Translations under genes and position numbers: made by a program
Assembly (NCBI GenBank): GCA_017397835.1
Contig: JAFQHV010000011.1
Span: 186,001 to 250,000 of the forward strand
Reading direction: 5' to 3'
Origin: Oscillospiraceae bacterium
Lineage (GTDB): Bacteria > Bacillota > Clostridia > Oscillospirales > Oscillospiraceae
Length of the DNA stretch: 64,000 bases
Part shown: one piece after another, positions 16,660-36,430 of the stretch
How the letters are laid out: every line of letters starts with the position of its first letter
How positions within the stretch are numbered: the stretch's first letter is position 1
Notes under the pieces: model-generated
The model's database searches: none
What the model was told of the DNA's origin: nothing
Seen by the model: only the letters and a program-made list of their open reading frames with translations

Positions 16660-16735
16660 CGCGGAGTAGAGCAGTTGGCAGCTCGTCGGGCTCATAACCC
16701 GGAGGTCGCAGGTTCAAGTCCTGCCTCCGCAACCA
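16660..16735 (+). tRNA. Initiator tRNA-fMet (anticodon CAU)
   Basis: The initiator hallmarks are visible: an unpaired C1/A72 at the end of the acceptor stem (C then GCGGAG, closing CTCCGC then A) and three G:C pairs in the anticodon stem around CTCATAA. CCA is encoded. Its 3' half is the integration target for the islands that follow. Confidence 0.93.
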
Positions 16736-16934
16736 TTAGGAAAGCCTCGCTATCTCAGGGTAGCGAGGCTTCTTTTTGCTCATTTTCCTGTTTTTTCGGT
16801 ACTTATTTGTAGTGATTCATAGTTGCGCCTATTCACGCCTATTTGTGCCTGTTCTGTCGCTATATCGTCGCTATGGCAACCCTTGCTCGTCGCTTCCGTC
16901 GATACGTCGTCGCCACGTCGTCGCTCTGGTCGGC
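16690..16934 (+). repeat. Attachment-site repeat, copy 1 (3' half of tRNA-fMet and downstream)
   Basis: This 245-bp segment begins at the tRNA anticodon and includes the tRNA 3' end, a terminator and a downstream stretch containing GCCTATTCACGCCTATTTG. It recurs almost identically (about five differences) at 23840-24084 and in diverged form from 33763. Confidence 0.85.
16744..16778 (+). terminator. Terminator of the tRNA operon (inside repeat copy 1)
   Basis: GCCTCGCTA pairs with TAGCGAGGC and is followed by a CTTTTT tract. Confidence 0.9.
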
Positions 16935-16961
16935 GGTACACTCCAAACATTACAACACAAA

Positions 16962-16993
16962 GACTCCCTGCCCAACAACCGGGCAGGGAGCCT
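16962..16993. terminator. Terminator-like hairpin of the CTCCCTGCCC family
   Basis: CTCCCTGCCC pairs with GGGCAGGGAG (loop AACAACC). It lies 3' of the minus-strand operon ending at 17036. Near-identical hairpins occur at 38943 and 46056. Confidence 0.65.
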
Positions 16994-17035
16994 TTGCTAT
17001 AAGGAACACAGAAAGAGTTTGTGTGTTCCTCTTTT

Positions 17036-17497
17036 TTAGAAATCAGCAACATACCAATTGCGGCCATCTTTAACCAAATACAACGTATCGCTATCCGAAC
17101 CCTCTTTCTTGTTCAGAAGGCCCGATCCTTTGTGTGTAACTTCGATTTCCGCCTTCATCATTTTACGGCCTTCATATTCATCGCTTATGGCCTCACATTC
17201 ATAGACATCTATAACGTGCACTTTGTATTTCCATCGTTTACCGTATATATCTTTATATCCTTCGATTGCATCATCGAAGTTTTCCTGCATGGAATGAATG
17301 GCAACCTTTTTTGTTTCATAAGGCAAGCTTTCTTTGAGTTCATCACTCATCAAGGAATATGCTTCTTTCGCATCTGCTTCCATTAAGCTTTTCATAAATT
17401 TGCTTGCCGTTTTTTCTGCGCTTCTTCCTCCAAACAGCAATGTACATATAATGATAAGCGCCCCTACGGTAGCAATCGGTTTAATCAGTTTGTTCAT
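17036..17497 (-). CDS. Membrane-anchored small protein, NTF2/DUF4878-like
   Basis: A 153-residue protein with an N-terminal hydrophobic segment (about 9-24, IATVGALIIICTLLFGG) that could be a signal anchor. The soluble domain starts KTASKFMKSLMEADAKEAYS, the style of DUF4878/NTF2-like domains found outside the membrane. There is no lipobox: a Cys occurs inside the hydrophobic stretch but without the usual context. The start at 17497 follows AAAGGAG and lies 11 bp after the stop of the zinc-ribbon gene, so it is the last gene of the five-gene operon. Family assignment is tentative. Confidence 0.7.
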   Translation of the reverse strand: MNKLIKPIATVGALIIICTLLFGGRSAEKTASKFMKSLMEADAKEAYSLMSDELKESLPYETKKVAIHSMQENFDDAIEGYKDIYGKRWKYKVHVIDVYECEAISDEYEGRKMMKAEIEVTHKGSGLLNKKEGSDSDTLYLVKDGRNWYVADF

Positions 17498-17508
17498 AAC
17501 AGTCTCCT

Positions 17509-19560
17509 TTACAGCTTTGTTCCGCAGCTTGAGCAAAACTTTGATATGCCATCCACTTTGGTGCCACAGGCAGAACAAAATTTTGCTCCCCCAACATTTT
17601 GCGCATCTTCAGATTGCTGATGCGCTTTGTTCCTTCCAAACCCAAAGCTAGATAAAAAACCAGCAGCTTTTTTGGCCTTGATGGATTCTTTTGCTTCAAG
17701 CACATCAGGATGTGCTACCTTCCCCCCTAAAGACAAATAATCGTACACATCTTTTTTGCCATGATTAAGCAGCGAAGCTATCATTCCACTTTCTTGCGCT
17801 GCAGCATATTTTGCTGCGGATTCAACATCAGCAGGATTCAGATGCGCAAATGCTACTATAAATCTGTCCCGCACATATTGTATCCTCGCTGTTTCCCTTA
17901 CAATCTTTTTGTTTTCCTCAATTTGCGAGACATTGGAGATACGCGTATTTATAAACATCTCAGTAAACCGTTCAAAATCCTCCGCTTCCCAGATTTCGCA
18001 AATCCGGTCTTCCACACGAGATAGAAACGGCTTTTTTATATTTTCAGACGCAGCATAGCACTTTACTTGTTCCCGAATACTCTCACACTCCCCTTCGCTC
18101 TTTTTTCCCAAATCGCAAAGCAGAGATTCTAGTTGTTCTTTATCAATTTCATCGATTCTGTTGTCTACGCGGGTTAGAAAGGCCCCCTTTGTCTCCACAG
18201 GTGCATCATAGTCGTCTATTTCTTTACGCACAGCCTTGCATTCTTCTTTGTTCTTCTGTCCCAAGTTGCAAAGCAACGCCTCAAAGTGTTCCCTATTTAT
18301 TTGATCGACTCTGTTGTCTATGCGAGCCCAAAACGCTTTCTTTGTGCTCACCGGTGCATCATAAGCATCTATTTTTTTGCGCACAACTTCGCACTCTTCT
18401 TTGTTCTTTTGGCCTAAATCACCAAGCAATGCTTCTAAGTTATCCCTATCTATTTGGAGAATTCTTTCGTCTAACAAACGGCGATGTTTCTCCTTTATTT
18501 CGGATGCACAGGTCATCCCTGCGATTTCCGCCAAACATTCTTTGCATCGTTCTTTGGTTGTTGTATTTTCATCTCCATACAGTTTTTTTATTTCCATATC
18601 AGCCTTTTCAGCTTGGGCTCGGAGCTCTCGACTCGCATATAAAACTCCGTCATACGTTCTCGCTTCAATATCAAACTCCCGAAGTTTTAGTTCAAGCGTC
18701 GTTTTCGCTGCGCAGTGTTTTACTTGGTATTTTTCCATGGCCTCTGCAAGTGTATCGATCAGCTGTTTGGCCTGTTCCTCGGATACCACATTTTTAGAGT
18801 CAAAGCGAGTATTGAGATCTTTTTCAATCATATCAGACAAATCAATGCTCAAATATTTGGCAATAGCCGCAATCTCATATTTGGCTTGTGGTAGTTTATA
18901 AAATATATACTCATAGTACGATTTGCATCGGGGATCAAGTTCAATCAATGATTTAGCCAATCTCTCTCGCTCTGATGCCGGAATATTTGACTCAAGCAAA
19001 TTTTTATATATGGCTTCTGCCTGCGACACCTCTTTTTCATAAATAAATTCAATAGGTGCTAATTTATTAGCATCCAAATATTCATTCACAAAATCACAAA
19101 GAGCCATTATGTCATTTCGTAGTGCACGGCTAAAATATCCCGATTCGAATTTAGCTTTCATTTTAGGAACAATATCTCTATCGGTTGTATCCTCCGAAAC
19201 ATTGTCAACAAGAAACTCCTCAAATCTATAGCGCAATCGAGATATTCCGTCATAGTCTCTAGTTATCTCTTCCCATATTTTTTCATCTGTTAATGTGTAT
19301 TCTCCAAATTTAGTCAAGTATTTTCTCGTTTCATACACATAAGTCTTAGCCTGCCCATCTAACATGCTGTCAGAGTATTTATTCATTGCTTTTTCCGCAT
19401 ATGAACTACTGAAAAAAGTAAGCGCAAACGAGTCCTCGTAATCCTTTTGGAAGGCCTTTTCAGCACGATTTGCCATCTCTTTGTAATCCGCAAGGATTTT
19501 CATGTAATTTTTTCGGCCCTCTGATATTTCAATTTTTTGGCCCAAAAGTTCAAATTCCAT
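17509..19560 (-). CDS. 683-aa zinc-ribbon protein with internal repeats
   Basis: A long, charged, mostly helical protein without signal peptide. A repeat of about 48 residues occurs three times in roughly the third quarter (units carrying LEALLGDLGQKNKEECE, FEALLCNLGQKNKEECK and LESLLCDLGKKSEGECE), each with an IDNRVDQI-like segment and DAPV. A single zinc ribbon ends the protein (FCSACGTKV, FCSSCGTKL). The start at 19560 is preceded by GAGAGGGG; the longer open frame overlaps the 51-residue gene upstream and is not used. I do not recognise the main body. It is the central gene of the operon, and zinc-ribbon tails of this sort often occur on membrane-associated or regulatory proteins. Confidence 0.75.
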   Translation of the reverse strand: MEFELLGQKIEISEGRKNYMKILADYKEMANRAEKAFQKDYEDSFALTFFSSSYAEKAMNKYSDSMLDGQAKTYVYETRKYLTKFGEYTLTDEKIWEEITRDYDGISRLRYRFEEFLVDNVSEDTTDRDIVPKMKAKFESGYFSRALRNDIMALCDFVNEYLDANKLAPIEFIYEKEVSQAEAIYKNLLESNIPASERERLAKSLIELDPRCKSYYEYIFYKLPQAKYEIAAIAKYLSIDLSDMIEKDLNTRFDSKNVVSEEQAKQLIDTLAEAMEKYQVKHCAAKTTLELKLREFDIEARTYDGVLYASRELRAQAEKADMEIKKLYGDENTTTKERCKECLAEIAGMTCASEIKEKHRRLLDERILQIDRDNLEALLGDLGQKNKEECEVVRKKIDAYDAPVSTKKAFWARIDNRVDQINREHFEALLCNLGQKNKEECKAVRKEIDDYDAPVETKGAFLTRVDNRIDEIDKEQLESLLCDLGKKSEGECESIREQVKCYAASENIKKPFLSRVEDRICEIWEAEDFERFTEMFINTRISNVSQIEENKKIVRETARIQYVRDRFIVAFAHLNPADVESAAKYAAAQESGMIASLLNHGKKDVYDYLSLGGKVAHPDVLEAKESIKAKKAAGFLSSFGFGRNKAHQQSEDAQNVGGAKFCSACGTKVDGISKFCSSCGTKL

Positions 19561-19580
19561 GGTTACTATCCCCTCTCTCA

Positions 19581-19736
19581 TTAATTTTTGAAAATTCTCA
19601 ATGCCCCACAAACGACTCCACCAATTGCCAAAATTTTGATGAGTCCAGGCAGTGCATCCCAAATCACAACCGCTACAGCAATTGCAATCAAGCACAAAAG
19701 AATAGTGTTGATCATTCTTCGCGTAAAACGTTCCAT
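19581..19736 (-). CDS. 51-residue double-span membrane protein
   Basis: The minus-strand frame starts MERFTRRMINTILLCLIAIA and ends GALRIFKN before TAA. AAAGGAGGG lies seven bases upstream of the ATG. Two hydrophobic stretches (about 10-25 and 29-46) are separated by WDALPG, and the first residues are basic, suggesting the N-terminus stays inside. It sits 3 bp after the preceding membrane gene and 20 bp before the zinc-ribbon gene. No family recognised. Confidence 0.7.
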   Translation of the reverse strand: MERFTRRMINTILLCLIAIAVAVVIWDALPGLIKILAIGGVVCGALRIFKN

Positions 19737-19739
19737 GTA

Positions 19740-19985
19740 TTACCCTCCTTTCCCCAGCAAGTTTCCCAATAGTGCAATCCCAATAATTAGCGCTAAACCT
19801 ATTAATGCAATCTTCAGCACCGGCCCCAACAGTTCAAGAACAAAAAAGGCCATCCCATATCCTATACCAAATGAAATCGCAGCTATAACGAGCAACGATG
19901 ACACACTAAAGAAGATTAAGCGTCCGTCGTTTAGGATAATCATAAACACAACAAAACCAAAAATAATTGCCAATGATAATTCCAC
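19740..19985 (-). CDS. 81-residue small membrane protein
   Basis: GTG start, with GGAGGAG overlapping the stop region of the upstream Mor-like gene (translational coupling likely). The sequence is almost entirely hydrophobic, with about three membrane spans (FGFVVFMIILND, SLLVIAAISFGIGYGMAFF, LKIALIGLALIIGIALLG) and a GKGG tail. Unrecognised family; probably a membrane partner of the next gene. Confidence 0.7.
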   Translation of the reverse strand: MELSLAIIFGFVVFMIILNDGRLIFFSVSSLLVIAAISFGIGYGMAFFVLELLGPVLKIALIGLALIIGIALLGNLLGKGG

Positions 19986-19988
19986 ACA

Positions 19989-20249
19989 TCACTCCTCCAA
20001 ACTATCTTTTATAAGTCTCCTTACTGTTTTCTCTGAATATCCGTACTTGATTGCCAACATCCTAATGTTAGTTCCGTCATATTCCTGCACGATGTTCCTT
20101 TGGATCCTGGCCGGGTTAAAGAAGCGTACAGGAAAGCTGATTTGCTGTCCTTTAAACATACGGTAGATTTCCATCGCCGTATCCATACCCAGCTTTTCGC
20201 TGACCTCTTTATAAACAGCATTCAGCAACTCAGGATCGTTTTCAGCCAT
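19989..20249 (-). CDS. Mor-like helix-turn-helix protein
   Basis: An 86-residue protein from MAENDPELLNAVYKEVSEKL, ending in a helix-turn-helix (NIRMLAIKYGYSEKTVRRLI). The layout matches the Mor transcription-activator-like family of phages and mobile elements: a helical dimerisation part, a beta linker near QISFPV, then the HTH. AGAGGTGA precedes the ATG at 20249. The frame is open further upstream but without a ribosome-binding site. It is the first gene of the five-gene operon and may regulate it. Confidence 0.75.
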   Translation of the reverse strand: MAENDPELLNAVYKEVSEKLGMDTAMEIYRMFKGQQISFPVRFFNPARIQRNIVQEYDGTNIRMLAIKYGYSEKTVRRLIKDSLEE

Positions 20250-20355
20250 CCGTATCACCTCTTTCGACAATTTTAGCGGATGGAAATGCTCAAGTAAAAT
20301 CCCATTGTCCTTGTGTTTGTCCCTCTGTTCTATATAGCTCATGTGGTGGCTCCAA

Positions 20356-20736
20356 TCAGAACAGCCGCATGAACAGCGCATGACCAATATCTGCCTCGGT
20401 GTAGTGCTCCGGCTCCCAAAACCGCTTTTGATAGCTTTCTCTCTTGTCTTTGGGCAGAGAAGTAAGATTGCCGTGACCATCCTCCCCCACTACATAGAAA
20501 ACTCCGGTAATAATGTCTTTGCCGATTTTGCGGTTCCCCTCAAGGCCAATGAGTTTGCCTTCTTCGTTGCAGACGAGACATACTCCGTCCTCAATGCCGA
20601 TGATTTCAATGAGGCCTTGGTAGTCAGCACCGATGCTAACAGCTTTCTGCAGAGCGTCAAGGTCATTCGCAATGGTTGTGATGGTCGGGTGCTTGTGCGG
20701 CTCAACCATCAAGACAGTAATTTCTTTCTCTTTCAC
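20356..20736 (-). CDS. DUF3846 domain protein
   Basis: A 126-residue protein with a GTG start behind GGAGGAAAG. It begins VKEKEITVLMVEPHKHP and carries the features of DUF3846: a VEP..P opening, an LDALQ..V segment, GVCLVCNEEGKLIGLEGNR and DIITGVFYVVGEDG. The family is common on integrative elements and phages of Firmicutes; function unknown. It is cytoplasmic. It lies upstream of the Mor-like gene with a 106-bp gap and divergent to the Fic gene. Confidence 0.85.
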   Translation of the reverse strand: MKEKEITVLMVEPHKHPTITTIANDLDALQKAVSIGADYQGLIEIIGIEDGVCLVCNEEGKLIGLEGNRKIGKDIITGVFYVVGEDGHGNLTSLPKDKRESYQKRFWEPEHYTEADIGHALFMRLF

Positions 20737-20937
20737 AGTTCTTTCCTCCAAACATAAAGATACCCAGTAGCGGCTCATAGCCACTACCGGGTTCAAATTT
20801 ATAATATATAAGCATCTAGGCTCAAAACACGCCTCAGCTAATTCTGTGGCATTATTCCGATTGGCGTGAAGTATCGTTCCTTTTCTTGCTATTGTTCCGA
20901 GTTTGTGGTATACTACATCCACGAAGGAGTGATTCCT

Positions 20938-21831
20938 ATGTTTATGACAGTTAAAGACACCGCAGCCAAGTGGGGCATTTCAGATCGACGGGTACGGATT
21001 TTGTGTAGTGAAGGTAAAATCCCCGGAGCTTTTCAGCAGGGTCACAGCTGGAAGATTCCGGAGAATGCCGTGAAGCCTGCCGATGGTCGCTACAAGACAT
21101 CTTCCTCCCTGCTGGAACTAATCGACAAAAAAAAGAAAGAGTTGGACTCTCGGCGTCCGCTGACCGAGGGTGAGGTCGCTCGTCTGAACGAAGACTTCGC
21201 CATCGAATATACCTACAACTCCAATGCTATCGAGGGCAATACTCTAACTCTGCGTGAGACTGATATGGTTCTACGCGGTTTGACCATCGACCAGAAACCC
21301 CTAAAGGAGCATATGGAAGTCGTTGGACACAAAGAGGCCTTTGACTTTGTGCGTGAGCTGGTGCAGAAAAACGAGTCTCTGTCCGAGCGCGTCATTCAGC
21401 AAATCCATTTCCTTGTCTTGGCCGACAAGCGAGAGGATCGAGGTGTTTACCGCCGTGTACCTGTCCGTATCATGGGTGCTCAGCACGAGCCGGTGCAGCC
21501 GTATATGATTCAGCCCAGCATGGAGCAGCTGATGATCCGCTATGCTGAAAGTGCTGAGCATATTGTCACTAAGCTGGCGCGATTCCATATTGAGTTTGAG
21601 GGTATCCATCCCTTTATTGATGGTAACGGTAGAACCGGTCGTCTCCTTGTTAATCTAGAACTGATGAAGGCCGGTTATCCCCCCATCGACATCAAATTCA
21701 CCGACCGCAAAGCTTATTACGAGGCCTTTGACGCTTACTATGTGAAGGGTAGCATTGCTCCGATGGAGAAACTGTTCGCAGGATATATAAACACTAGACT
21801 GGACCAGTACTTGAGTATGTTGTTAGGGTGA
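20938..21831 (+). CDS. Fic-domain protein with N-terminal HTH
   Basis: A 297-residue protein. An excisionase/MerR-style DNA-binding segment comes first (MTVKDTAAKWGISDRRVR, then a GKIPGAFQQGHSWKIP wing), followed by a Fic domain with the motif HPFIDGNGRTGRL (His224). Ser95-x3-Glu99-Gly-Asn (SNAIEGN) matches the class II inhibitory helix, so the protein carries its own brake on AMP transfer. Fic proteins of this build modify targets with AMP or phosphate; the target is unknown. AAGGAG sets the start at 20938. It ends at a bidirectional terminator at 21906 and stands alone in island A. Confidence 0.92.
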   Translation: MFMTVKDTAAKWGISDRRVRILCSEGKIPGAFQQGHSWKIPENAVKPADGRYKTSSSLLELIDKKKKELDSRRPLTEGEVARLNEDFAIEYTYNSNAIEGNTLTLRETDMVLRGLTIDQKPLKEHMEVVGHKEAFDFVRELVQKNESLSERVIQQIHFLVLADKREDRGVYRRVPVRIMGAQHEPVQPYMIQPSMEQLMIRYAESAEHIVTKLARFHIEFEGIHPFIDGNGRTGRLLVNLELMKAGYPPIDIKFTDRKAYYEAFDAYYVKGSIAPMEKLFAGYINTRLDQYLSMLLG

Positions 21832-21905
21832 GTTCAGTTGACCTGAAACACATCGCTGTTCTATCTGCTTACAAGCATCGCTAGCACAAGCCTTAATTAC
21901 CATAC

Positions 21906-21948
21906 AAAAATCCCGCATCATGCCTGGTACCCATGATGCGGGATTTTT
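21906..21948. terminator. Bidirectional terminator
   Basis: ATCCCGCATCATG pairs with CATGATGCGGGAT, flanked by A and T tracts, between the convergent genes ending at 21831 and 21955. Confidence 0.85.
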
Positions 21949-21954
21949 CATATA

Positions 21955-22179
21955 TTATCCTCTTGGAGGAAACGGATCATTGCCGTAAGAGTTTTTTTCT
22001 CTGATTCGACCATCAGTTCCGTGAATCACACACTCAGCACCTTGGTTAATGGCTATCTTGCGTGCAATCGCTGCCGCCTCCGCCTGCGTTTCCGTGCACC
22101 TAGTCGCTCTGGAATTACCTGCGCCGATAACCTGCCAACCACCATCCGGACGTGGTGTTACATGCTGGTTCTTACCCAT
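21955..22179 (-). CDS. DUF2188-like small protein
   Basis: A 74-residue protein starting MGKNQHVTPRPDGGWQVIGA, the typical opening of DUF2188 proteins, with the later conserved element GTDGRIREKNSYGNDPFPP. The ribosome-binding site GGAGGTGAG overlaps the stop of the upstream zinc-ribbon gene, so the two are translationally coupled. Function unknown. Confidence 0.85.
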   Translation of the reverse strand: MGKNQHVTPRPDGGWQVIGAGNSRATRCTETQAEAAAIARKIAINQGAECVIHGTDGRIREKNSYGNDPFPPRG

Positions 22180-22183
22180 ATTC

Positions 22184-22429
22184 TCACCTCCATTCCGGTT
22201 CAAGGCTGACGTTTCCCGTATGCCCACACTTCGGACAACGAGCGCTTCCGCCACGGACAACAATCACTGTCCCACAACCGCAGGAAGGGCACTTCCCCTG
22301 CAGTTCCTCTCCAACATGGTGGTCTAGGACCTTTTCCGGGTGCCTTTTCAAGTCTTTTTCAACCCCCTTTTTAATGTCTTTTTCCAGTTCCTTCATGAAC
22401 TTCTTGACATCAAAACTGTTCCTGCCCAT
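22184..22429 (-). CDS. Small zinc-ribbon protein
   Basis: An 81-residue protein. The N-terminal half is charged and helical (VKKFMKELEKDIKKGVEKDL). The C-terminal half is a zinc ribbon with two CxxC pairs (CPSCGCG and CPKCGHTG). Cytoplasmic. It lies between the DUF3892-like and DUF2188-like genes in a three-gene operon. Function unknown; zinc ribbons often bind nucleic acid or protein. Confidence 0.8.
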   Translation of the reverse strand: MGRNSFDVKKFMKELEKDIKKGVEKDLKRHPEKVLDHHVGEELQGKCPSCGCGTVIVVRGGSARCPKCGHTGNVSLEPEWR

Positions 22430-22441
22430 ATCGCCACCCCC

Positions 22442-22720
22442 TTACTCACGAGGCAGGTCAAGGAGATTGTCATAAGTATGGTCATTGGGCGCCGACCTCA
22501 CATACTTTTCCCCTTTAGGGCTGATAGCTGGAACAACCGCAGGGTAAGGTGAAATATTTACCTTAATCGTCCCCGGATTCTTCTTGAGGTGGTCGTAAAG
22601 AACCGCCTTTTTGAAAAAGCCCGGATTAGTGCACCCCTCAATATAGATTGAGTCGATTTCCAAAAGGTTCTGCGAGGTGTAGTGTCCTTGCTGCATTTTG
22701 ATTTTCGTTGCGTACATCAT
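22442..22720 (-). CDS. DUF3892-like protein
   Basis: A 92-residue protein starting MMYATKIKMQQGHYTSQNLL. The ending GEKYVRSAPNDHTYDNLLDL is characteristic of DUF3892, a family frequent on Firmicutes mobile elements. AAAGGAG lies before the ATG. It is first of a three-gene operon (22720 to 21955). Function unknown. Confidence 0.8.
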   Translation of the reverse strand: MMYATKIKMQQGHYTSQNLLEIDSIYIEGCTNPGFFKKAVLYDHLKKNPGTIKVNISPYPAVVPAISPKGEKYVRSAPNDHTYDNLLDLPRE

Positions 22721-22817
22721 GGTGTACCACTCCTTTTAACTGTTTTCATATAATATATATAAACAGCCATAAGAAAAACTCGGCCCCACGGGATCCACTT
22801 TTGGTAAAAATCCCATG

Positions 22818-22846
22818 TTGAACCGAGCTCAAATCCATGATATAAT
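22818..22846 (+). promoter_or_regulatory. Consensus promoter of the candidate small RNA
   Basis: TTGAAC (22818-22823), a 17-bp spacer and TATAAT (22841-22846). No plus-strand gene follows before a terminator at 22914. Confidence 0.65.
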
Positions 22847-22851
22847 GCTGA

Positions 22852-22948
22852 CATCTCCTTATGCACAGCAATATCGTGGCTTTGAGCTTCGTGTTCTGTG
22901 ACGGCACAAGGGACAGCGCAACGGGTACCAGCCGTTGCGCTGTTTTCT
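22852..22948 (+). ncRNA. Candidate small RNA of about 97 nt
   Basis: The interval runs from the expected start point of a consensus promoter to the T-tract of a strong terminator. The terminator is an 11-bp perfect stem CAGCGCAACGG / CCGTTGCGCTG (22914-22942) followed by TTTTCTT. It encodes no reading frame with a ribosome-binding site. An upstream CACAG/CTGTG pairing (about 22864-22900) could form a second hairpin. I recognise no known RNA family. It lies between the DUF3892 operon and the XRE regulator in island A. Confidence 0.5.
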
Positions 22949-23049
22949 TATGTCTGGAACTTTAGTTTACTATACCAGTCCACGCCCGTTCTGTCAAGTG
23001 CAAAGCACAAGATATTGTACATCTTTTTCGCTTCACACAACATCTTGCG

Positions 23050-23586
23050 TCACACGCCCTCCTCGATCTGTTCTAATAAATCAAGTAAAGTAGGTTCCCC
23101 TTTGCGTTCCTCTTGCTTCCGCAACTCAACAATCGCCTCTAGTCTGGCACCCATCTTTCTATTAATCAGAAGCGCCGTCTCTAGCTTGTCCAGCTTCCCG
23201 TTGTCGGCTGTGGCTAGCAACAGTTTCATGGAGAACATATACCTGTCCAAGGCTTCTTTGAAGTCAATCGACTCAAAAGCCCTGTGAAAATCGTCTTCCT
23301 TTACACGCTTTCCAGCCGTCTTCTCCAAAACCTCACGTGCTGTGATACCGCTTTGCACAACAATTTGGCGTGCGGTTTCATCGAGATCCTTGTCATAAAA
23401 GTACTCGGGGCCTATGCCGTAGTAGAGGGATAGCTTTTCTTGGTTGCTGCTAGATGCAACAGAGTTCCCGCTTTCCCAGTTAGCTACGGTGACACGATTT
23501 ACATTGACCGCAGTCGCAACCTGCTCTTGAGTTGCTCCATACAAATCCCGTATTAACTTTAGGTTATTTACCATAATGCTCACCAT
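23050..23586 (-). CDS. XRE-family transcriptional regulator
   Basis: A 178-residue protein. An N-terminal Cro/CI-type helix-turn-helix (LKLIRDLYGATQEQVATAVN, then VTVANWESGNS) spans residues 8-60. The C-terminal half is helical and probably mediates dimerisation or partner sensing. GGAGGAAAGG precedes the start. Directly upstream lie repeated GTAATATTT elements inside an inverted repeat, so it probably represses itself. The gene is at the right end of island A, where element regulators commonly lie. Confidence 0.88.
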   Translation of the reverse strand: MVSIMVNNLKLIRDLYGATQEQVATAVNVNRVTVANWESGNSVASSSNQEKLSLYYGIGPEYFYDKDLDETARQIVVQSGITAREVLEKTAGKRVKEDDFHRAFESIDFKEALDRYMFSMKLLLATADNGKLDKLETALLINRKMGARLEAIVELRKQEERKGEPTLLDLLEQIEEGV

Positions 23587-23622
23587 AACCTTTCCTCCGT
23601 ATCATACCAGACAGGACACAAA

Positions 23623-23672
23623 AAAACAACACCCTACAAAACTTTGTAATATTTTTGTAATATTTGTAGTGT
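23623..23672. promoter_or_regulatory. Repeat-containing operator region of the XRE gene
   Basis: The outer arms ACACCCTACAAA and TTTGTAGTGT are inverted. Between them two GTAATATTT units stand in direct repeat 11 bp apart. The region lies 40-85 bp upstream of the XRE start. Confidence 0.45.
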
Positions 23673-23839
23673 CTCCGTGCTTGTTGCGCCAAAGCTCTCC
23701 TCTAAAAAACAGCACTCTTCCGTAGCAACTTTTGCCTTCTCTGTTTTGGTCTCCGCCCGTCGCTATATGGTCGCTTTTTGTTGCTTTCAAAACCCGCAAA
23801 CGCCTACGCCAGTAAGGACAGAGTCAATGTCACCTCATA

Positions 23840-24084
23840 GCTCATAACCCGGAGGTCGCAGGTTCAAGTCCTGCCTCCGCAACCATTAGGAAAGCCTCGC
23901 TATCTCAGGATAGCGAGGCTTCTTTTTGCTCATTTTGCTGTTTTTCCGGTACTTATTTGTATTGATTCATAGTTGCGCCTATTCACGCCTATTTGTGCCT
24001 GTTCTGTCGCTATATCGTCGCTATGGCAACCCTTGCTCGTCGCTTCCGTCGATACGTCGTCGCCACGTCGTCGCTTTGGTCGGC
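23840..24084 (+). repeat. Attachment-site repeat, copy 2 (partial tRNA-fMet)
   Basis: Near-identical to 16690-16934, starting at the anticodon CTCATAACCC. The 5' half of the tRNA is missing, so it is not a working tRNA gene. The internal terminator hairpin is kept (23894-23927). Confidence 0.85.
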
Positions 24085-24233: not shown

Positions 24234-24297
24234 TTCTGTTTGATTGCGTATTGCAACACTTATGTCCAAATATGGATTGCCCTGTGCAATGAGAGAA

Positions 24298-24897
24298 TCA
24301 CTCGACTGGATCGCAGCGAACCACAAAGCGGCCATAACCGCCGGGAGTACAAGTAAAAATCGTCATCGCATGCGCCGAAGCGGTCAGTTCGTCCAATTGT
24401 GTGGGCTTTAAGACTTCGGTGACAGAAACTGCATAAGCATGTGCAGTGCCGCCAGCATCTAGAAACTCCATCCGGTCACCGGGTGAAACCTGGCGCAGAG
24501 GCGCAAAGTGTTTTTTATAATTATGCCCCATCAGGATCAGATCCTGCCCCTCTATGCTGCCGGAGTAGCGGCAGGGGGACAATTTCAGAAGGTCATAGCT
24601 CCAACTGTCCAGCACAGGCAGTTCCAAACCAACACCGGGAACACGGATGATGCCCACAAGGTCATAGCCCTGCAGCGAGGTCTGAAGCATCTGACCGGTA
24701 GACTGCTCCTGTACTGCCGTGTCGTATAGGTTCTGCTCCTGATTTTGCTCAATTTCCTCGGTTAGGGCTGCCAGTAGCTGCTGTGCGTTTTCACCCGCGA
24801 TCTCGGCCTCCTGCTCATACTGAGAGAAAAAATAGGCTGAGGTGAGGATCATTGACAGGCCCAAAAGGACCAATGCGACGGCACGGATCTGTTTCAT
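24298..24897 (-). CDS. Second sortase of the pilus operon
   Basis: A 199-residue sortase with one N-terminal membrane anchor (VALVLLGLSMILTSAYFF). It has the catalytic His in LMGHNYKKHF (His125), Cys in TIFTCTPGGYGRF (Cys183) and Arg a few residues later. There is no C-terminal membrane segment, unlike the class C enzyme, so it is probably a class B/D-like housekeeping-type sortase that attaches the finished pilus to the wall or handles the minor pilin. The start ATG overlaps the minor-pilin stop by ATGA, indicating translational coupling. Class assignment is tentative. Confidence 0.88.
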   Translation of the reverse strand: MKQIRAVALVLLGLSMILTSAYFFSQYEQEAEIAGENAQQLLAALTEEIEQNQEQNLYDTAVQEQSTGQMLQTSLQGYDLVGIIRVPGVGLELPVLDSWSYDLLKLSPCRYSGSIEGQDLILMGHNYKKHFAPLRQVSPGDRMEFLDAGGTAHAYAVSVTEVLKPTQLDELTASAHAMTIFTCTPGGYGRFVVRCDPVE

Positions 24898-26594: not shown

Positions 26595-26610
26595 AGCGTC
26601 TCTCCTGAAA

Positions 26611-27465
26611 TCAATTGCCGGCCTTTTTTTGCCGTTTATGCAACAAAACTCTGCGCAGTCCAAGGAACAGACCGGTGAGTGCGCCAAGGCCAACAAGGGT
26701 CAGCGGGATCACATACACCAGACTGACGGGGCGCAATTCGTTGGTAAGATACAACTGCCCGGAAGTTGCACCAGCGCTGTTTTGCATACGAGCACCCCGC
26801 ACCAGCAGGCGGTGGGAGTTGATACCGTACGGCGTGCAGGTGACGAGGGTCACATAGTCCTCCCCGGCCACCACCCGTAGGCGAGAAGTGTCGTTGGGCA
26901 GTACAACGGCGATATCGTCCACACGGTACTCCAATTCTTCGCCCAGAACATGGAGATAAAACTTGTCGCCGGTCTCCAGCCGGTCGATATGGGTCAGCAG
27001 TTCTGCCGATGGCAGACCACGGTGGCCGGAAATGACCGCGTGAGTGCTTGGACCACCTACAGGCAGACTGGTCCATTCCAGATGGCCCACCGCCACCTGC
27101 AGTACCGATTCGTCCGTGCCGTGGTAGATGGGCAGTTTGCAGTTGATGCAGGGGATGTCCACATAGCCCATAATGCCCGTGCCGGCCACATTCAAAAGCT
27201 CGGAATACTCCGCTTGCCAGGTTTCGTCCATGTCAACGGTTCCGGCCCGGGACAACAGGGAATCATTATAGCTTCTGGCCGCTGCCAGCATCTGCTCGGC
27301 CTGTGTCCGGTCACTGTTGTCGATTGCCTGAACGTAGTCGGCGATGGCATTGGATTGGACCCGTGCGTTCCAAAAGTTGCTGACCGCAGGATAGAGCAGC
27401 AAGGACAACCCTGCAAGAAAAATCAGTATGAGAGGGAGATTTCCCCCTGTTTTCTTGCCTTTCAT
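26611..27465 (-). CDS. Class C (pilus-polymerising) sortase
   Basis: A 284-residue sortase with an N-terminal membrane segment (LPLILIFLAGLSLLLYP) and a C-terminal one (LVYVIPLTLVGLGALTGLFL), the topology of class C enzymes. The catalytic residues are His148 (ISGHRGLPS), Cys210 (TLVTCTPYG) and the Arg in NSHRLLVRG. It joins LPxTG-type pilin subunits through isopeptide bonds. It lies directly after the backbone pilin, from which it is separated by a very stable hairpin, and 17 bp before the minor pilin. Confidence 0.95.
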   Translation of the reverse strand: MKGKKTGGNLPLILIFLAGLSLLLYPAVSNFWNARVQSNAIADYVQAIDNSDRTQAEQMLAAARSYNDSLLSRAGTVDMDETWQAEYSELLNVAGTGIMGYVDIPCINCKLPIYHGTDESVLQVAVGHLEWTSLPVGGPSTHAVISGHRGLPSAELLTHIDRLETGDKFYLHVLGEELEYRVDDIAVVLPNDTSRLRVVAGEDYVTLVTCTPYGINSHRLLVRGARMQNSAGATSGQLYLTNELRPVSLVYVIPLTLVGLGALTGLFLGLRRVLLHKRQKKAGN

Positions 27466-27482
27466 GCAGAACTCTCCTTACT

Positions 27483-27509
27483 GCCCCGGGGAGCAATGCT
27501 CCCCGGGGC
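27483..27509 (-). promoter_or_regulatory. Intercistronic hairpin between pilin and sortase genes
   Basis: A 12-bp perfect GC-rich stem GCCCCGGGGAGC / GCTCCCCGGGGC with an AAT loop lies 18 bp after the backbone pilin stop. On the coding strand no U-tract follows. It is thus better explained as an mRNA-stabilising or attenuating element than as a full terminator, and would lower sortase output relative to pilin. Confidence 0.6.
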
Positions 27510-27527
27510 CACAGGTTTGGTGAAAGC

Positions 27528-29081
27528 TTACTTGGTCTCGCGCTTTTTGGCGATGATAACGGCAGCGGCACCCAGCATCAGAACGATACCGGCCACGTAG
27601 AAGATGGTGGTACCGATACCACCGGTCTCGGGCAGGACCGCACCCTTGGTGTTGGTCACGGTCAGGTTGATGGCGCCGGTGTCCACATCGGTGGAAGAGG
27701 AACTGACGCCGGATACACTGGTGATGGTCAGCGCATTCAGCGTTCCGGTATCCTGGCTCAGGGAGCCGGAATACTGCACGATGATATCGGAGGTCAGCAG
27801 GTTATACTGGGCAGGCGCCACCTTTTCACGGATGTGATAGGTGCCGGAGGCCAGACCCTTTACAGACAGAAGGCCGTTTTCGTTCGTGGTAAAGCGGGTT
27901 GCGCTGTCCTCGCTGGCGGTGGTCCCGTTTACCACGCCGTTGGCGTCGGCGGTAAACCAGGTATACGTACTATCGCCGTTCTTATAGCCGAGAATGAACT
28001 GCGCACCCCGCAGTTTGGTTGCGGAGTCAGCGGCATCCACCTTGGTCAGATTAACCTGATAGGAGTACACGATGGCCTTGGCCTCGTTGGTAACACCAAC
28101 GCTTCCGGGGGTACCGGTGCCGGTATAATCCTCGTTGGGGTTGTTGGAGAAATACAGCTTTGCCTTATTCTCATTACCACCGCTGCCCAGAACCAGATTG
28201 CTGTTTACTTTCGTCTCGATCTCCACAACAATTTTGTCGCTGATAACCGTGGGAGAGTTGGTGGCTGCCCGAATCGCCGCATGAATATCCTGAATGGTCA
28301 CGTTCACGGCACCCGCGGTATCCACAGAATAGCTGCCGGGATCCATGGCATAAGAGGTGGTACCGCTCAGAACGGATACGGTTGCGCTTTCAAAGGTAAG
28401 ACCGGCGGGCAGCACATCTTCGAAGCGGAAATAGCACTTTTCGTAATCGTGCACATAAGTATGCAGAGAAGCAGTCAGCCTGAAGTACACCGTATCGCCC
28501 ACCGTTGCGCTGACGGCCTCTTTGTAAGTGCCGGCAGCACCCAGCTTTACTTCCTTGGACAGGGTGGGGACACCGGCCTTGGGGCTGAGCTCAACGTTGT
28601 TGACAATACGCAGCATATGTTTGCTGTAGGCGTGCTCGGAGCCGTTCATCTCACTGTCTGCGGTGGTCTCCACAATCAGGTAATATCCCGCTTCCAGGTC
28701 GGAAATCACAAACTGCTTGGTCGCGCTTTTATACTCGCCTTCTTCGCCGTTGCTTTCATTCAGATACTGGGCAACGTTTTCGGCAAAGGCGGCCACCGTA
28801 GTGTCGCTCAAGGTGCCGGCAATGCCGGAAGCATCCGACTTGCTGTAGAGCGTCTGCAACGCGGCCTGTCCCTCTACAGTAACACCGTTGCCCCACACAA
28901 GGTTGGACAGCACGCTGCCATCCAAAGTGCCGGTAAAAATTTGATATGCCGTATATTTGTGGGTATCGTGGTCGCTGTTGATTTTAATGGTGTAGCCGGC
29001 CGCCGAGGCAGGCAGAAGCAAGGTCGCAGCCAGCATCATAACAGCCAGCAGGCAGACAAACAGTTTCTTCATGGTTTTCAT
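27528..29081 (-). CDS. Backbone pilin with LPETG sorting signal
   Basis: A 517-residue pilin. It has a signal peptide (MKTMKKLFVCLLAVMMLAAT, mature from about ASAAGYT), an N-terminal pilin domain, then isopeptide-type domains (the C-terminal CnaB-like one near VNLTKVDAADSATKLRGAQF). It ends LPETGG, a hydrophobic span and KKRETK. SpaA/FimA-type major pilins have this layout. AAGGAGAG precedes the start. It lies between the adhesin and the class C sortase, the usual place for the polymerised subunit. The candidate pilin lysine lies somewhere in the N-terminal domain and is not assigned. Confidence 0.93.
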   Translation of the reverse strand: MKTMKKLFVCLLAVMMLAATLLLPASAAGYTIKINSDHDTHKYTAYQIFTGTLDGSVLSNLVWGNGVTVEGQAALQTLYSKSDASGIAGTLSDTTVAAFAENVAQYLNESNGEEGEYKSATKQFVISDLEAGYYLIVETTADSEMNGSEHAYSKHMLRIVNNVELSPKAGVPTLSKEVKLGAAGTYKEAVSATVGDTVYFRLTASLHTYVHDYEKCYFRFEDVLPAGLTFESATVSVLSGTTSYAMDPGSYSVDTAGAVNVTIQDIHAAIRAATNSPTVISDKIVVEIETKVNSNLVLGSGGNENKAKLYFSNNPNEDYTGTGTPGSVGVTNEAKAIVYSYQVNLTKVDAADSATKLRGAQFILGYKNGDSTYTWFTADANGVVNGTTASEDSATRFTTNENGLLSVKGLASGTYHIREKVAPAQYNLLTSDIIVQYSGSLSQDTGTLNALTITSVSGVSSSSTDVDTGAINLTVTNTKGAVLPETGGIGTTIFYVAGIVLMLGAAAVIIAKKRETK

Positions 29082-29145
29082 GGTTTTCTCTCCTTTGTCC
29101 TTGTTTGTACGGTCGATTTCAGATTGTATAACCTACATTTCAGTA

Positions 29146-32100
29146 TTAATCGTTGGATCGCAACCGCCTCCTTTTTCTGTGATAAGGAAGCGTCCAAAGC
29201 CAAGCCGCGCCGAGCATCAGCAGCAGGCCAAGGCCGTGGTATATCCCCGGTCCACTGCCTCCGGTAGAGGGCAGGGGCCGCTTGGGAACATTCATAACCT
29301 GAATCGTATAGGCCGTGGCACCGGCCTGTGCGTAGGTATGGCCATCCACCACAATGGTGCCGTCCTCCCGAATGGTCAGGAATACGGGGTCAAGCAACTG
29401 CTCGTACCCGCCGGGAGGCGAGGTTTCCATCAGTCGGTAATACCCATACAGCAGGTTGTCGAAGGTCAGGGTACCGTCCGACCCCGTGGTAGCGGTACGG
29501 GTCACAAAGGTGGGGTCGGCCACATATCCGCCGCTTGCGTCCGAAACAAGATGCTGCAGGGTGAACGTAGCTCCGGGCAGCCGCAGAGTGCCGGATAGAT
29601 TGGTTTTTGTCAGACGCAGCAGGGTGCGCCGGGTATCATTCTGGATGGTGAAGGCGGTGTTGGTTACCTTTCCGCTGCCGTCCCTGGTATAGGTCGGGTC
29701 GGAGTAGCTTACCAGCCAGTTGGCGAAGGTGAAGTCCGGCTTGCAGTTTTCTGTACCGATCCTGGTTTCACGCACGGACCAGGTAATGGAGGTGCCGTTG
29801 GCATAGGCAGGCAGGCCGCTCCATGTGGCCCGGTAGCCGTTGGCCGCCGTCAGCTGCACCGTGGGCTCCACGCCGGGGATCAGGGAGGAGACCAGATGAC
29901 CGTTGGCCAGCAGCTGCACCGTCACGTCAGCCCAGTCTGCTTCGGGACACAGCCATTGCTTGGTAACAGTGACGGAGGTGTTCTCTGTGGTGTTCTCCAC
30001 GATCAGCAGGCCATCATGGTAGGATGCCAGAGGCGAGGTGCTCAAAATTCCGATCTGGTCTGTTAGCTGGCCCGTGTCCAAATCGGGCAGATAGCCGATA
30101 ATGATGTTTTCGATGGGAGTATAGCCGGAAGGCGGCTGCAGCTCCTGCACCACCACGTTGCCGGCGTCGTAGCTGAAACCGGAAATGACCAGTTCGTAAT
30201 AGCCGGTAGTAGAGCCGGATAGCTCCGTTATACTGCCCTGTGTGTCATAGATGTATTGGTTCTTTGCACTATCATAAGTAAAGGTCAGGGGCAGTTCGTT
30301 CTGCAGCAGCTGGAACGTGGCTCCCGCCAGCGGATTTCCGGTGCGGGCATCTTCCTTTTTGATGATGATGGAGTCGCTGGTGTGGTACACATTGGTGAAC
30401 TCCACGCGCATGATCTGGTCGGTACCTGCATCCAGTGCATAGGTTTGACCGACAATGTCCACCGTAGTGCCCGGACCGTTTTTATTCTGCTGATTAAACG
30501 CATCCACGACGCTGTATTCGGAATAGCCGTGATAATTGATTCCGCCCGGGTTATTCACCTCGTTATAGGTGTGTTCGGTGAGCGTCCATGGTTCGCCATA
30601 GTCCAGACCGTTTACTTCCCAGGTATAGGTATCGGTAGCCGGATCATAGCCGGCGGCGCTGTTCAGCGTCAGAGTGTGCTGCTTGGTTCCGGCCCCATTG
30701 GCCGCGGTGATGGAGAAGTCCTGCTTGGCCAACGCAACACCGTCCATGTTGCCCGCAAAGGACTTTTTCACATAGACGATGCCCTGTTTTTTCACCAAAC
30801 GACCGTCGATGTGCCAGGCATCGCTCTGGGCCTTGAACACATACCAGCGGATGGCATAGGCCTCCGCATGCAGATTTTCCGGATCCACCGGCTCGCCATC
30901 CACCTCAAGCTGGCGGTTTTGAGCATGGGTGATCAGCTTTTGGAATATCTCCTCGTCGTCCGGGAAACTTTGCAGCCAAATACCCGGCTGCTCACCGTAC
31001 AGGGCACGGATTCGCTGGTCAGCACCAAAGGAGTTATCCGCGGTAGTGTCGGCGATATAGTATTTATCGTTCAGCTCGTTTACGGACAAGCTTGTCGTAT
31101 CTGTACCGCCCACGTGAGTAGCAAACAGTTCGGGGGTGTAGTCGGTGACCGAACCGCCCACCACGCCGCCGCCCTGGGTGTCGATGGGTTTAGAGTCATA
31201 TCGGACAAAGAAGCTGACCGTTTGCAGGGGCGAGGTCTCCCACACGGCGGTGAGATTGAGCCGGTTCCCGCTGGCGAAGGATTGCAGCTCGTCCCAGTTC
31301 AGGGTGGAGTTGGGGCTGAGGATGGTGTCGGAAGTGCCCACCCGCCAGCCGGAAAAGCGAATGATGCGGGTGTTGCCGTCGGACAGCTTGCCCGGCACCT
31401 CGTGCTGAGAGACATTGCGGATAAGTGCAGAACCGTTTTCATCCACCGTATCGGTCAATGTGGTCTCAACGGTGCCGTAGATCGTAGGTCTAGTGGACAC
31501 GGTTACACCGCTTACTGTGGGGAACGCGATGTTATAAACGATACGCAAGGTGCCGTTGTCCTCCCTGGCGGTAAAGGTCTTGGGTCCGTTGATGGTCACG
31601 GTTTGACCGCCGGTATATTGGGCACTTCCGTCGCTCCACACGTAGTCGCCCGAAAGGGTGACGGAGCTGCCGCTGAGAACGTATTGCGTGTCGGAGGAGC
31701 CGTCCGGGTACTCAAAGGTCACGGTGTAGAATTGCAGCGGATTTCCGGAGTCGTCCATCAGGAACACGTACTTGGCACTGCGTGCGGAAGTGGCGGTGAA
31801 ATAGTTGCTGTTTCCGTTGCGGAAGGTCATCGTGGTCCGGGAGATGGTAATGTCGTTCCATATACTTGGATTTTGAGAGTCGGCCCACTGCAAATTCAGT
31901 TCGCTCCAGCTATAGTCAGTCCCCAGATTGTCGTTAATCAGATCCACCGCATCGCCGGTATCCAGCCGGACGGTTTGCCGCCAACTTGAGCCGGAGGTGG
32001 TAAAGGTCAGCTTGCCGAAACAGACCCCCTGCTCATTGTCCAGCCAAATACAGAAGTTGGCACTGTAGTTGTCGGTGCTGGCACTTTCCCCCACAGCCAG

Positions 32101-32745
32101 GGTGGATATCCCACTGTCCGATCCTGCTGCAAGCAAAGTAGTCGTGTCCGTTGGAAGAGTCAGATCGCTGGGGCCTGCAGCGAGGGTGGATGCCTTGTAC
32201 AGATTCTCGTTCAGCACCAGTCCGGGCTCTACGTTGTTTTCAGCAATCGCCTCGTTCAGAGCGGATACATTCAGCTGAGAAGGCTCTTCTTCCGGTTCAG
32301 GCGGTTCGGCCTGCGTAGTGGTGTTATTCAACAAAACTACCTGCACGTCATGAACATTATCGTTCTGTTGTGAAAGAGGGGTGATCGTTCCGCTGAGTTG
32401 GGCAGCGGTATCCACCGTATCGGAAATAACGGTCTCCAGATTGTTGCCGGAACTGGCATCCACCTGAGCAAGCAGGCTGTTGATGTCATTGTCCCGAAGC
32501 AGGACGAGATAACAGTTTTCCGTGTGGGTGTGCTGGGGCTGAAGGCAGGTCAGCCGACTGCCGGTATAGCAGGCCGAATTGTGAGTGTGCTCCTGCATTC
32601 CGCAGCGGGCGGACTGCTCCAGTGCCACCGCGCTGACCATGTTGCTGCGCAGGGATAACAGGGAGAGCAACAGGAAAACAACAACTCCGGCGGCGATCCA
32701 TATTCGATTGTTCGGACGCAAGCCGATTGTTTTCACATGCTTCAT
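29146..32745 (-). CDS. Large tip adhesin of the pilus, LPSTG-anchored
   Basis: A 1199-residue surface protein. An N-terminal signal anchor (VVVFLLLSLLSL) is followed by a short Cys/His cluster: CGMQEHTHNSACY near 48, then CLQPQHTHTENCY near 68. A long beta-rich body follows, with Cna-type repeats in the last third (KKEDARTGNPLAGATF, LTKTNLSGTLRLPGATF), and the sorting signal LPSTGG plus RKRRRLRSND closes it. It is the largest pilin of the operon and sits before the backbone pilin, as tip adhesins usually do. The ribosome-binding site is weak (GCAAAGAAG directly before ATG), suggesting low expression. Ligand unknown. Confidence 0.88.
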   Translation of the reverse strand: MKHVKTIGLRPNNRIWIAAGVVVFLLLSLLSLRSNMVSAVALEQSARCGMQEHTHNSACYTGSRLTCLQPQHTHTENCYLVLLRDNDINSLLAQVDASSGNNLETVISDTVDTAAQLSGTITPLSQQNDNVHDVQVVLLNNTTTQAEPPEPEEEPSQLNVSALNEAIAENNVEPGLVLNENLYKASTLAAGPSDLTLPTDTTTLLAAGSDSGISTLAVGESASTDNYSANFCIWLDNEQGVCFGKLTFTTSGSSWRQTVRLDTGDAVDLINDNLGTDYSWSELNLQWADSQNPSIWNDITISRTTMTFRNGNSNYFTATSARSAKYVFLMDDSGNPLQFYTVTFEYPDGSSDTQYVLSGSSVTLSGDYVWSDGSAQYTGGQTVTINGPKTFTAREDNGTLRIVYNIAFPTVSGVTVSTRPTIYGTVETTLTDTVDENGSALIRNVSQHEVPGKLSDGNTRIIRFSGWRVGTSDTILSPNSTLNWDELQSFASGNRLNLTAVWETSPLQTVSFFVRYDSKPIDTQGGGVVGGSVTDYTPELFATHVGGTDTTSLSVNELNDKYYIADTTADNSFGADQRIRALYGEQPGIWLQSFPDDEEIFQKLITHAQNRQLEVDGEPVDPENLHAEAYAIRWYVFKAQSDAWHIDGRLVKKQGIVYVKKSFAGNMDGVALAKQDFSITAANGAGTKQHTLTLNSAAGYDPATDTYTWEVNGLDYGEPWTLTEHTYNEVNNPGGINYHGYSEYSVVDAFNQQNKNGPGTTVDIVGQTYALDAGTDQIMRVEFTNVYHTSDSIIIKKEDARTGNPLAGATFQLLQNELPLTFTYDSAKNQYIYDTQGSITELSGSTTGYYELVISGFSYDAGNVVVQELQPPSGYTPIENIIIGYLPDLDTGQLTDQIGILSTSPLASYHDGLLIVENTTENTSVTVTKQWLCPEADWADVTVQLLANGHLVSSLIPGVEPTVQLTAANGYRATWSGLPAYANGTSITWSVRETRIGTENCKPDFTFANWLVSYSDPTYTRDGSGKVTNTAFTIQNDTRRTLLRLTKTNLSGTLRLPGATFTLQHLVSDASGGYVADPTFVTRTATTGSDGTLTFDNLLYGYYRLMETSPPGGYEQLLDPVFLTIREDGTIVVDGHTYAQAGATAYTIQVMNVPKRPLPSTGGSGPGIYHGLGLLLMLGAAWLWTLPYHRKRRRLRSND

Positions 32746-32770
32746 CTTCTTTGCTTCGTCAACGTGTATT

Positions 32771-32811
32771 GTGCTCTATCGATAGAACACAAGTCAGGGG
32801 CCCCTGACTTG
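32771..32811. promoter_or_regulatory. Two adjoining DNA palindromes upstream of the adhesin gene
   Basis: GTGCTCTATC/GATAGAACAC (32771-32790, one mismatch) abuts the perfect 22-bp palindrome CAAGTCAGGGG/CCCCTGACTTG (32790-32811). They fill most of the 89-bp gap between the signal-peptidase-like gene and the adhesin. They may be an operator pair or an RNA attenuator; no U-tract is present. Confidence 0.5.
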
Positions 32812-32834
32812 ATAGTCTGGTTACGTGGGCTGGG

Positions 32835-33350
32835 TCAAAGAACCTTTCCCAGTATGCGGTCGGCGGGGACAGTCCCGATTTCGGAAAGGCGGCTGTCCAT
32901 GGAAATAGAACGGTTGTCCCCCATGACAAAATAATGTCCGTAGGGAACGTGATATGGGAAGGAGATGTTGTACTGACCGATGGAGGGGGTCTGTACATAC
33001 GGCTCGGAAAGAACCGTGCCGTCAATGGTGACGGTCCCGCTCTCCTCCAGCGAGATGCTGTAACCGCCCTCGCAGATCACCCGGCGTACCAGCACCTTGT
33101 TGTTGTAATAGAATGCGATAATATCGCCCGACTGTACCTTGTCCGTTTTCAGCAGTACAAGCAGCTGGCGGTCGGAAAGAGATGGCTCCATTCCGTCCCC
33201 ATAATACCGGACGACCATAAACACATGGGTGAACAGGTTGACCAGCAGCAAAACCACGACCAACAGCACCGCAGCCAGCCGCAGGACAATTTTCCCGTAG
33301 GGAGGGCTGGGCAAAACGCGCTTCCCCTTTGTTGAAATAAGCGTTTTCAT
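32835..33350 (-). CDS. Signal peptidase I homologue lacking the catalytic dyad (SipA-like pilus chaperone)
   Basis: A 171-residue S26-family protein. One membrane span (VLRLAAVLLVVVLLLVNLF) is followed by the SPase fold, with the box E motif GDNRSISMDSR intact. The catalytic Ser normally found just before MEP is Gly53 (YYGDGMEPSL), and the catalytic Lys of the next box is Arg89 (KVLVRRVICEGG). Codons GGA and CGC are read directly. The same kind of loss is known in SipA of streptococcal pilus loci, which assists pilus assembly without peptidase activity. GGAGGTGAGG sets the start at 33350. It is the first gene of the pilus operon. Confidence 0.88.
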   Translation of the reverse strand: MKTLISTKGKRVLPSPPYGKIVLRLAAVLLVVVLLLVNLFTHVFMVVRYYGDGMEPSLSDRQLLVLLKTDKVQSGDIIAFYYNNKVLVRRVICEGGYSISLEESGTVTIDGTVLSEPYVQTPSIGQYNISFPYHVPYGHYFVMGDNRSISMDSRLSEIGTVPADRILGKVL

Positions 33351-33762
33351 ATTGCCCTCACCTCCCCCAAAATATGGTATACATAAAAACGCGAAATCCC
33401 ATTTTACGGTAGCACTTTTTCCCTTTGTTGTCAAGCATTTCATGCCATTAGAGCTATTGCAGCAGTCAACAGAATTCCGCAAGGAAAAATCCGCGTGGTT
33501 TTCTTGATTACAGCAGCGCACAATATGATGCAGCCGTGGACATCGTGGTGCATCGCATATCCCCCTCCGCTCCGCCAAAGGGCGCCTCGACGCCCTCGTG
33601 TTCGAAGTCGGTCGTTGCGGCACCGTTTTGACCCATTTTTTGACCCAGAATAGAAAATTCCCCTGTGGAAGCAACGGAGAAGAGAGGGTCAAAGACCATT
33701 CCGCACCGGGGGATAAAGGCCTGGAAAGGGCTATAAACCTCCCTATGGAACCTCCGGCCGCA
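33351..33762. other. Gene-poor region upstream of the pilus operon
   Basis: Four hundred bases without a supportable gene. The part near 33429-33434 holds a minus-strand TTGACA, but no good -10 follows at the right distance. The stretch 33560-33740 is rich in short inverted and direct elements (two TTTGACCC copies at 33626 and 33638). Open frames here have no ribosome-binding site. The pilus operon promoter must lie in this region. Confidence 0.5.
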
Positions 33763-33957
33763 GCTCATAACCCGGAGGTTGCAGGTTCAAGTCCTGCCTC
33801 CGCAACCACAAGGAAAGCCTCGCTATCTCAGGATAGCGAGGCTTCTTTTTGCTCATTTTAGTGTTTTTTCGGTACTTATTCCTGTTTATTGATAGTTGCG
33901 CCTATTTATACCTGTTTATGCCTGTTCTGTCGCTATATCGTCGCTACGGCAACCTTT
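33763..33957 (+). repeat. Attachment-site repeat, copy 3 (partial, diverged tRNA-fMet)
   Basis: It starts at the tRNA anticodon segment and keeps the T-arm, CCA-like end, terminator hairpin (33817-33842) and the GTTCTGTCGCTATATCGTCGCTA stretch, with more changes than copies 1 and 2. It marks the right end of island B. Confidence 0.8.
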
Positions 33958-36428: not shown

Positions 36429-36430
36429 TG

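Follow-up and report, generated by a model that had tools for sequence, protein, structure and literature searches.

How did two blocks of accessory genes come to stand one behind the other at an initiator tRNA gene, bounded by three copies of its 3' half, when neither block encodes an integrase? The window (the whole stretch of 64,000 nucleotides analysed) comes from an uncultured member of the Oscillospiraceae, here genome G000. An earlier note on its sequence had described direct copies at 16690, 23840 and 33763, with intervals of 7.15 and 9.9 kb, and had proposed that the intervals are two cis-mobilisable elements, moved by an integrase encoded elsewhere. The description proved accurate: the spacings are 7150 bp (copies 1 to 2) and 9923 bp (copies 2 to 3), copies 1 and 2 are 98% identical over the 245-bp unit, and copy 3 is more diverged (BLAST 90% over 197 bp, reaching 33959; 75% ungapped over the 245 nt of 33763-34007). 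Our answer, to which we give a probability of about 0.83, is a serial accretion of integrase-less elements at tRNA-fMet, in which island 1 (copy 1 to copy 2) would be movable and island 2 (copy 2 to copy 3) would be a composite. Features are listed in Table 1.

Table 1. Features of the tRNA-fMet array and its surroundings, in window coordinates.
Feature	Position	Strand	Remarks
tRNA-fMet, target gene	16660-16735	+	ARAGORN; 3' part from anticodon loop (16691) is the att core
Copy 1	16690-16934	+	Core, terminator at about 16738-16775, P' arm, B-type site 16856-16872 (+165 from core)
Terminator-like remnant	16950-16996	+	Also inside the arm of SLH-protein islands of G064 (85% over 47 bp) and G065
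Island 1 genes	17036-23586		Accessory cargo, low GC, no integrase
B-type site, P arm of island 1	23759-23775	+	82 bp before core 2; equal spacing in G064
Copy 2	23840-24084	+	Core, terminator, P' arm with B-type site 24006-24022
Island 2, sortase-assembled pilus operon	24298-33395	-	Pfam
Sortase	24298-24981	-	Island 2
Cna_B protein	24894-26696	-	Island 2
Class C sortase	26611-27465	-	Island 2
Major pilin, SpaH/EbpB-type	27528-29081	-	Island 2
Adhesin	29146-32745	-	Island 2
Signal peptidase I	32835-33395	-	Island 2
P arm of island 2, A-type	33624-33763	+	TGACCCA pair 33629-33647, at -135/-123 from core 3
Copy 3	33763-33959	+	Core, terminator, P' arm with B-type site 33929-33945
Genes after copy 3	34007-38667	-	454-aa protein without Pfam match, GFO_IDH_MocA, AraC, DegT-type aminotransferase
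Likely native right flank	52952-55460		GFO_IDH_MocA 52952-53887 (-); glutamine synthetase 54036-55460 (+)

The target gene is clear. ARAGORN finds a tRNA-Leu at 16570-16656 followed by a tRNA-Met(cat), in which the features of an initiator (a C1:A72 mismatch and three G:C pairs in the anticodon stem) can be read from the sequence. The anticodon loop is a common crossover point, and the repeat starts one base before it. From there it runs through the 3' half of the tRNA and the terminator and then for some 160 bp beyond. Its length of 245 bp is thus accounted for by a tRNA core, a terminator and an integrase-arm region in series. A 38-bp core pattern with up to 3 mismatches has three matches in the window, with 0.00 expected, and neither this pattern nor local alignment in five intergenic stretches yielded a fourth core.

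In the G000 assembly (1.84 Mb, 43 contigs, 96% complete), a BLAST search with a 401-bp query spanning copy 1 finds the repeat at these three places only, which rules out the ordinary dispersed repeat that the earlier note had allowed for. Three further matches of 32-43 bp fall in the last, terminator-like part of the query, outside the repeat. A plasmid or phage source was also considered: no plasmid match among the 20 listed of 258 covers 80% of the unit (best 29%), and no phage match among the 20 listed of 39 does so (best 22%). Four fecal records named 'Bacteriophage sp.' contain the core, with no TGACCCA at the arms. One 'Bacteriophage sp.' record from human feces (MT837313.1) carries the whole tRNA-fMet and a 187-aa ORF that matches our integrase profile with 133 bits, and may therefore be host chromosome.

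Tyrosine integrases are found at this site in other members of the genus. We define the clade of the window as G000, G064, G065, G066, G067, G024 and G032, the last included on close gene content and having no arm match; these genomes are 78-98% complete, and the relatives are mostly draft assemblies. Taking contigs with two copies within 30 kb, an integrase lies in 11 of 12 copy-to-copy intervals of the other genus members and in none of the clade's 8, one of which is only 271 bp long; five of these integrases, four from counted intervals, went into the profile, and one locus (L060) was selected because its integrase was already known. Ten of the twelve are alike in arrangement, the integrase starting 154-194 bp from the core and convergent with the tRNA. 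The two others are G086, with an integrase, and G005, an 18.7-kb interval with no match to the profile inside. The ten integrases are related, eight being 76-97% alike and two standing at 31-42% to the rest, and that of G007 has the domains PF00589 and PF14659. It belongs to a compact 7.4-kb element (3134-10642 of its locus) of an integrase and one 1479-aa SLH protein, in which we noticed no transfer genes. The lack of an integrase is therefore not peculiar to the clade: besides the G005 interval, copy pairs outside the genus, in G053 (3.0 kb) and G043 (0.3 kb), have none.

The window contig has no PF00589 gene, in agreement with the earlier note; the four in the assembly are on contigs C1 (two), C40 and C13, and none is found on the att contigs of the clade. 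The clade's best matches to a congener integrase reach 45% (G065) or less, compared with 74-100% for the family members found at tRNA-fMet.

What the islands do have is attachment arms, and these are of two types. In the integrase-arm region, GTCGCTATATCGTCGCT stands at a fixed +165 from the core. The B-type site, GTCGCTATATNGTCGCT, occurs at +165 of all three window copies and at -82 of copy 2, and in G064 at +165 of the second copy and -82 of the last. The 64 kb contain four exact B sites, where chance would give 0.19 per window even if 3 mismatches were allowed; three of the four sit inside the repeat and count once. A single B-like site with 3 mismatches lies at 54478, away from any copy. 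Of 394 genomes of the order, a sample with four members of the genus and without the clade relatives that have the site, G000 alone contains the exact pattern; viral contigs yielded no match, and no B-type integrase turned up in either set.

The A-type arm is marked by pairs of TGACCCA. In a survey of 71 distinct cores (sequence duplicates removed; 44 of them within whole tRNA genes), the ten integrase-bearing congener intervals have such pairs at +129/130 and +141/142 of eight left-hand cores, and at -134/-122 or -135/-123 of seven right-hand cores, one more having a single site; the background is 0.05 per 460 bp. The two intervals lacking the pairs are those with the two divergent integrases. 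Arm-type sites outside the repeat of the window lie at 23759 and 33629, and the second of these is A-type. The arm before copy 3 aligns with that of G007 over 135 bp with a score of 39.5 (300 shuffles, at most 17.0) and with G024 at 79% over 228 bp, core included. An island of 16.4 kb in G024 lacks an integrase and has TGACCCA arms on either side, and the integrase-less G005 interval has TGACCCA at its right-hand end only. The P' arms of the A- and B-types align weakly and unevenly, 1 to 72 of 300 shuffles being equally good, and for this reason we do not claim common descent.

On the basis of these observations, we propose that tRNA-fMet would be the attachment site for a group of tyrosine integrases recombining at the anticodon loop, at which elements integrated successively. 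A 3' tRNA copy and, behind it, the P' arm of the following element should therefore remain at every junction. The elements of the window and its close relatives have attachment arms but no integrase; the enzyme, we infer, either worked in trans or disappeared at a later stage.

Island 1 has the appearance of a cis-mobilisable element. Its GC content is low, 38-49% in 1-kb bins at 17-24 kb compared with 57-62% at 10-17 kb. It encodes a secreted-type 180-aa protein, a zinc-ribbon 728-aa protein, a Mor-like activator, DUF3846, an HTH-Fic protein (on the + strand), DUF2188, DUF3892 and an XRE regulator; the Fic protein matches the PADLOC candidate family PDC-S04. Pfam identifies no recombinase and no relaxase or conjugation family among the nine of its proteins that were scanned. 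It appears to keep both attL and attR, with cores at 16691 and 23841 and B-type arms at +165 and -82, so it should move if a B-type integrase were supplied. Judged by its sequence, it would fit a CIME in every feature tested: no integration genes, no transfer genes, attL and attR kept.

Island 2 is different, and here the proposal of two mobilisable elements does not hold. The proteins scanned are those of the pilus operon only, with no integration or transfer genes among them, and the GC content (52-59%) is not lowered. The P' arm after copy 2 is B-type and the P arm before copy 3 is A-type, so that its ends would not suit a single integrase as attL and attR. It is better read as a fused composite or remnant, predicted not to excise alone, which most likely arose by deletion or recombination between neighbouring elements. 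Its A-type arm would most likely be that used by the integrase family of the congeners, of about 388 aa. The major pilin has 41% (G065) and 37% (G032) identity to its counterparts, compared with 79-95% for its operon neighbours, and looks exchanged or fast-evolving. A related pilus operon is found in G032 (contig C36) some 6 kb upstream of tRNA-fMet and has no adjacent att copy; the operon therefore need not have arrived by the att route.

The most serious alternative is plain decay, in which each island had its own integrase that was later deleted, and all islands are now fixed remnants. We consider this a real possibility, with odds somewhat short of even. CIMEs are regarded as decayed ICEs or IMEs in the relevant part of the literature (PMC5704250), decay is visible at the tRNA-fMet site itself as partial arms and cores in G065 and G032, and the mixed arms of island 2 are consistent with deletions. 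However, no integrase remnant is found beside the arms in the clade contigs, where two tblastn matches (E 0.36 and 0.82) are at chance level, and copies 1 and 2 both have complete P' arms, which are 97% alike.

That likeness bears on a second alternative, which is that integrases merely founded the array and homologous recombination among att copies then shuffled the cargo. Copy 1 is less similar to its G065 counterpart (arm 92%, upstream 391 bp 88%) than to copy 2; the likeness of copies 1 and 2 therefore postdates the split of the lineages, and may come from recent integration or from gene conversion, as the alternative would have it. The remnant just inside copy 1 is a terminator of another island type, and suggests a trace of a replaced earlier occupant, although the window contig has terminators like it at three further places. 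The mixed arms of island 2 agree with such recombination too. It leaves unexplained, however, why island 1 and the 16.4-kb island of G024 each end on both sides in matched arms of fixed spacing, and we regard it as unlikely.

Serial accretion, our preferred reading, is further supported by the comparison of relatives. tRNA-fMet is matched in 46 of 64 genus genomes (E<=1e-5), many of which have extra partial tRNA copies starting at tRNA position 30-35, and the arm part (199 bp, E<=0.01) is matched in 7 of 64, that of G014 over no more than 28 bp. A scan for the pattern in named genomes led to Oscillospiraceae metagenome assemblies with goat cecum, sheep colon and yak cecum in their titles, and to two SIG assemblies with no stated source. 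The window, G064 and G065 have a common upstream flank, with 80-99% protein identity over five genes, behind which the cargo differs. In G064, the tRNA is followed by a block of methyltransferases and a TdeIII-like fragment, a block with an SLH surface protein and a GH116 enzyme, and a block of type I restriction genes with a Fic protein. In G065, an SLH-protein block comes first, followed by the pilus operon (five of its proteins 83-95% identical to those of the window, the major pilin 41%), a GH20/AraC block, a decayed arm, and the genes located behind copy 3 of the window. At their right ends, the SLH blocks of G064 and G065 are 90% identical over 180 bp. The locus is therefore an accretion hotspot and not a block held in one order by its relatives, and the different cargo at one flank, the fixed arm geometry and the integrase-bearing congeners uphold the earlier proposal of accretion by an integrase encoded elsewhere. 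The empty sites that the earlier note had hoped to see were not found, at least in clean form, in the seven clade genomes. That metagenome assembly misjoined unrelated segments at the repeat is very improbable: the named relatives are metagenome assemblies and a 245-bp repeat could mislead an assembler, but G065 has the same order from core 2 to the pilus operon, and G064 and G024 likewise have arrays of several copies.

The array may extend further to the right. Copy 3 is not simply the chromosomal end, because an arm region follows it too, and the block after it, which recurs in G065 behind the decayed arm, is possibly an older insertion. In G024, an att copy with a terminator adjoins a homologue of the GFO_IDH_MocA gene of the right flank, and in G067 an att copy lies just before a homologue of its glutamine synthetase; the native right border is therefore probably at 52.9-54.0 kb. 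No right-hand neighbour common to the whole genus was seen. A 'ceramidase' label for the gene at 34007-35371 was discarded, having no Pfam support. In G053, outside the genus, a gene matching PF04734 (ceramidase) lies between two tRNA-fMet copies (4808-6145) and has a distant likeness to the window gene after copy 3 (22% over 199 aa). The window also encodes two giant surface-type proteins of 2015 aa (3625-9672 and 38995-45042), both containing BNR (sialidase-like) repeats. One of them also has SLH domains, and its gene matches at the 3' end the termini of the G064 and G065 SLH islands.

For many genomic islands, no mover can be recognised. Here, arm-site spacing links such orphans to a type of integrase and predicts which of them can and cannot excise. 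The locus also illustrates how a single tRNA gene of gut bacteria gathers pili, surface proteins and restriction systems. A bolder version, speculative and rather doubtful, is that the tRNA-fMet islands of the clade form an integrase-free, cassette-like system, moved only in trans by the integrases of visiting elements. Each cargo block would carry a small attP module of about 150-245 bp, and two or more arm codes would set which enzyme pairs with which block.

Our literature search found no paper on this tRNA-fMet site, but the array is a clear case of a known kind, CIME-like accretion. An autonomous integrative element (ICE or IME) has its own integrase, which the window islands do not. In the account of ICESt1-related elements, as far as it concerns us here (PMC5704250), a CIME has lost its genes for integration and transfer but retains attL and attR, and such elements stack by accretion. 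The window islands are like these in having no such genes, in being bounded by att sites and in being stacked in one target gene; they differ in that the window has no adjacent ICE or IME, that one of the two islands has two arm types, and that the site is tRNA-fMet in an uncultured member of the Oscillospiraceae. Closest in sequence are the tRNA-fMet elements of the congeners, such as the 7.4-kb element of G007 with its integrase and SLH protein, which have the same core and the TGACCCA geometry of the left arm of island 2 but, unlike the window islands, carry an integrase. The ssrA islands of Dehalococcoides, 15 of which lack an integration module in the relevant section of their description (PMC3146451), also stand in tandem, many at a single RNA gene, with 3' repeats; there, a serine recombinase acts and the repeats are of 20 bp, whereas in the window the arms of a tyrosine integrase stretch the repeat to 245 bp. 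CALINs, on the points of their description taken up here (PMC11389934), are likewise cargo with recombination sites that depends on an outside enzyme, and differ from the window islands in recombinase, site and cassette structure.
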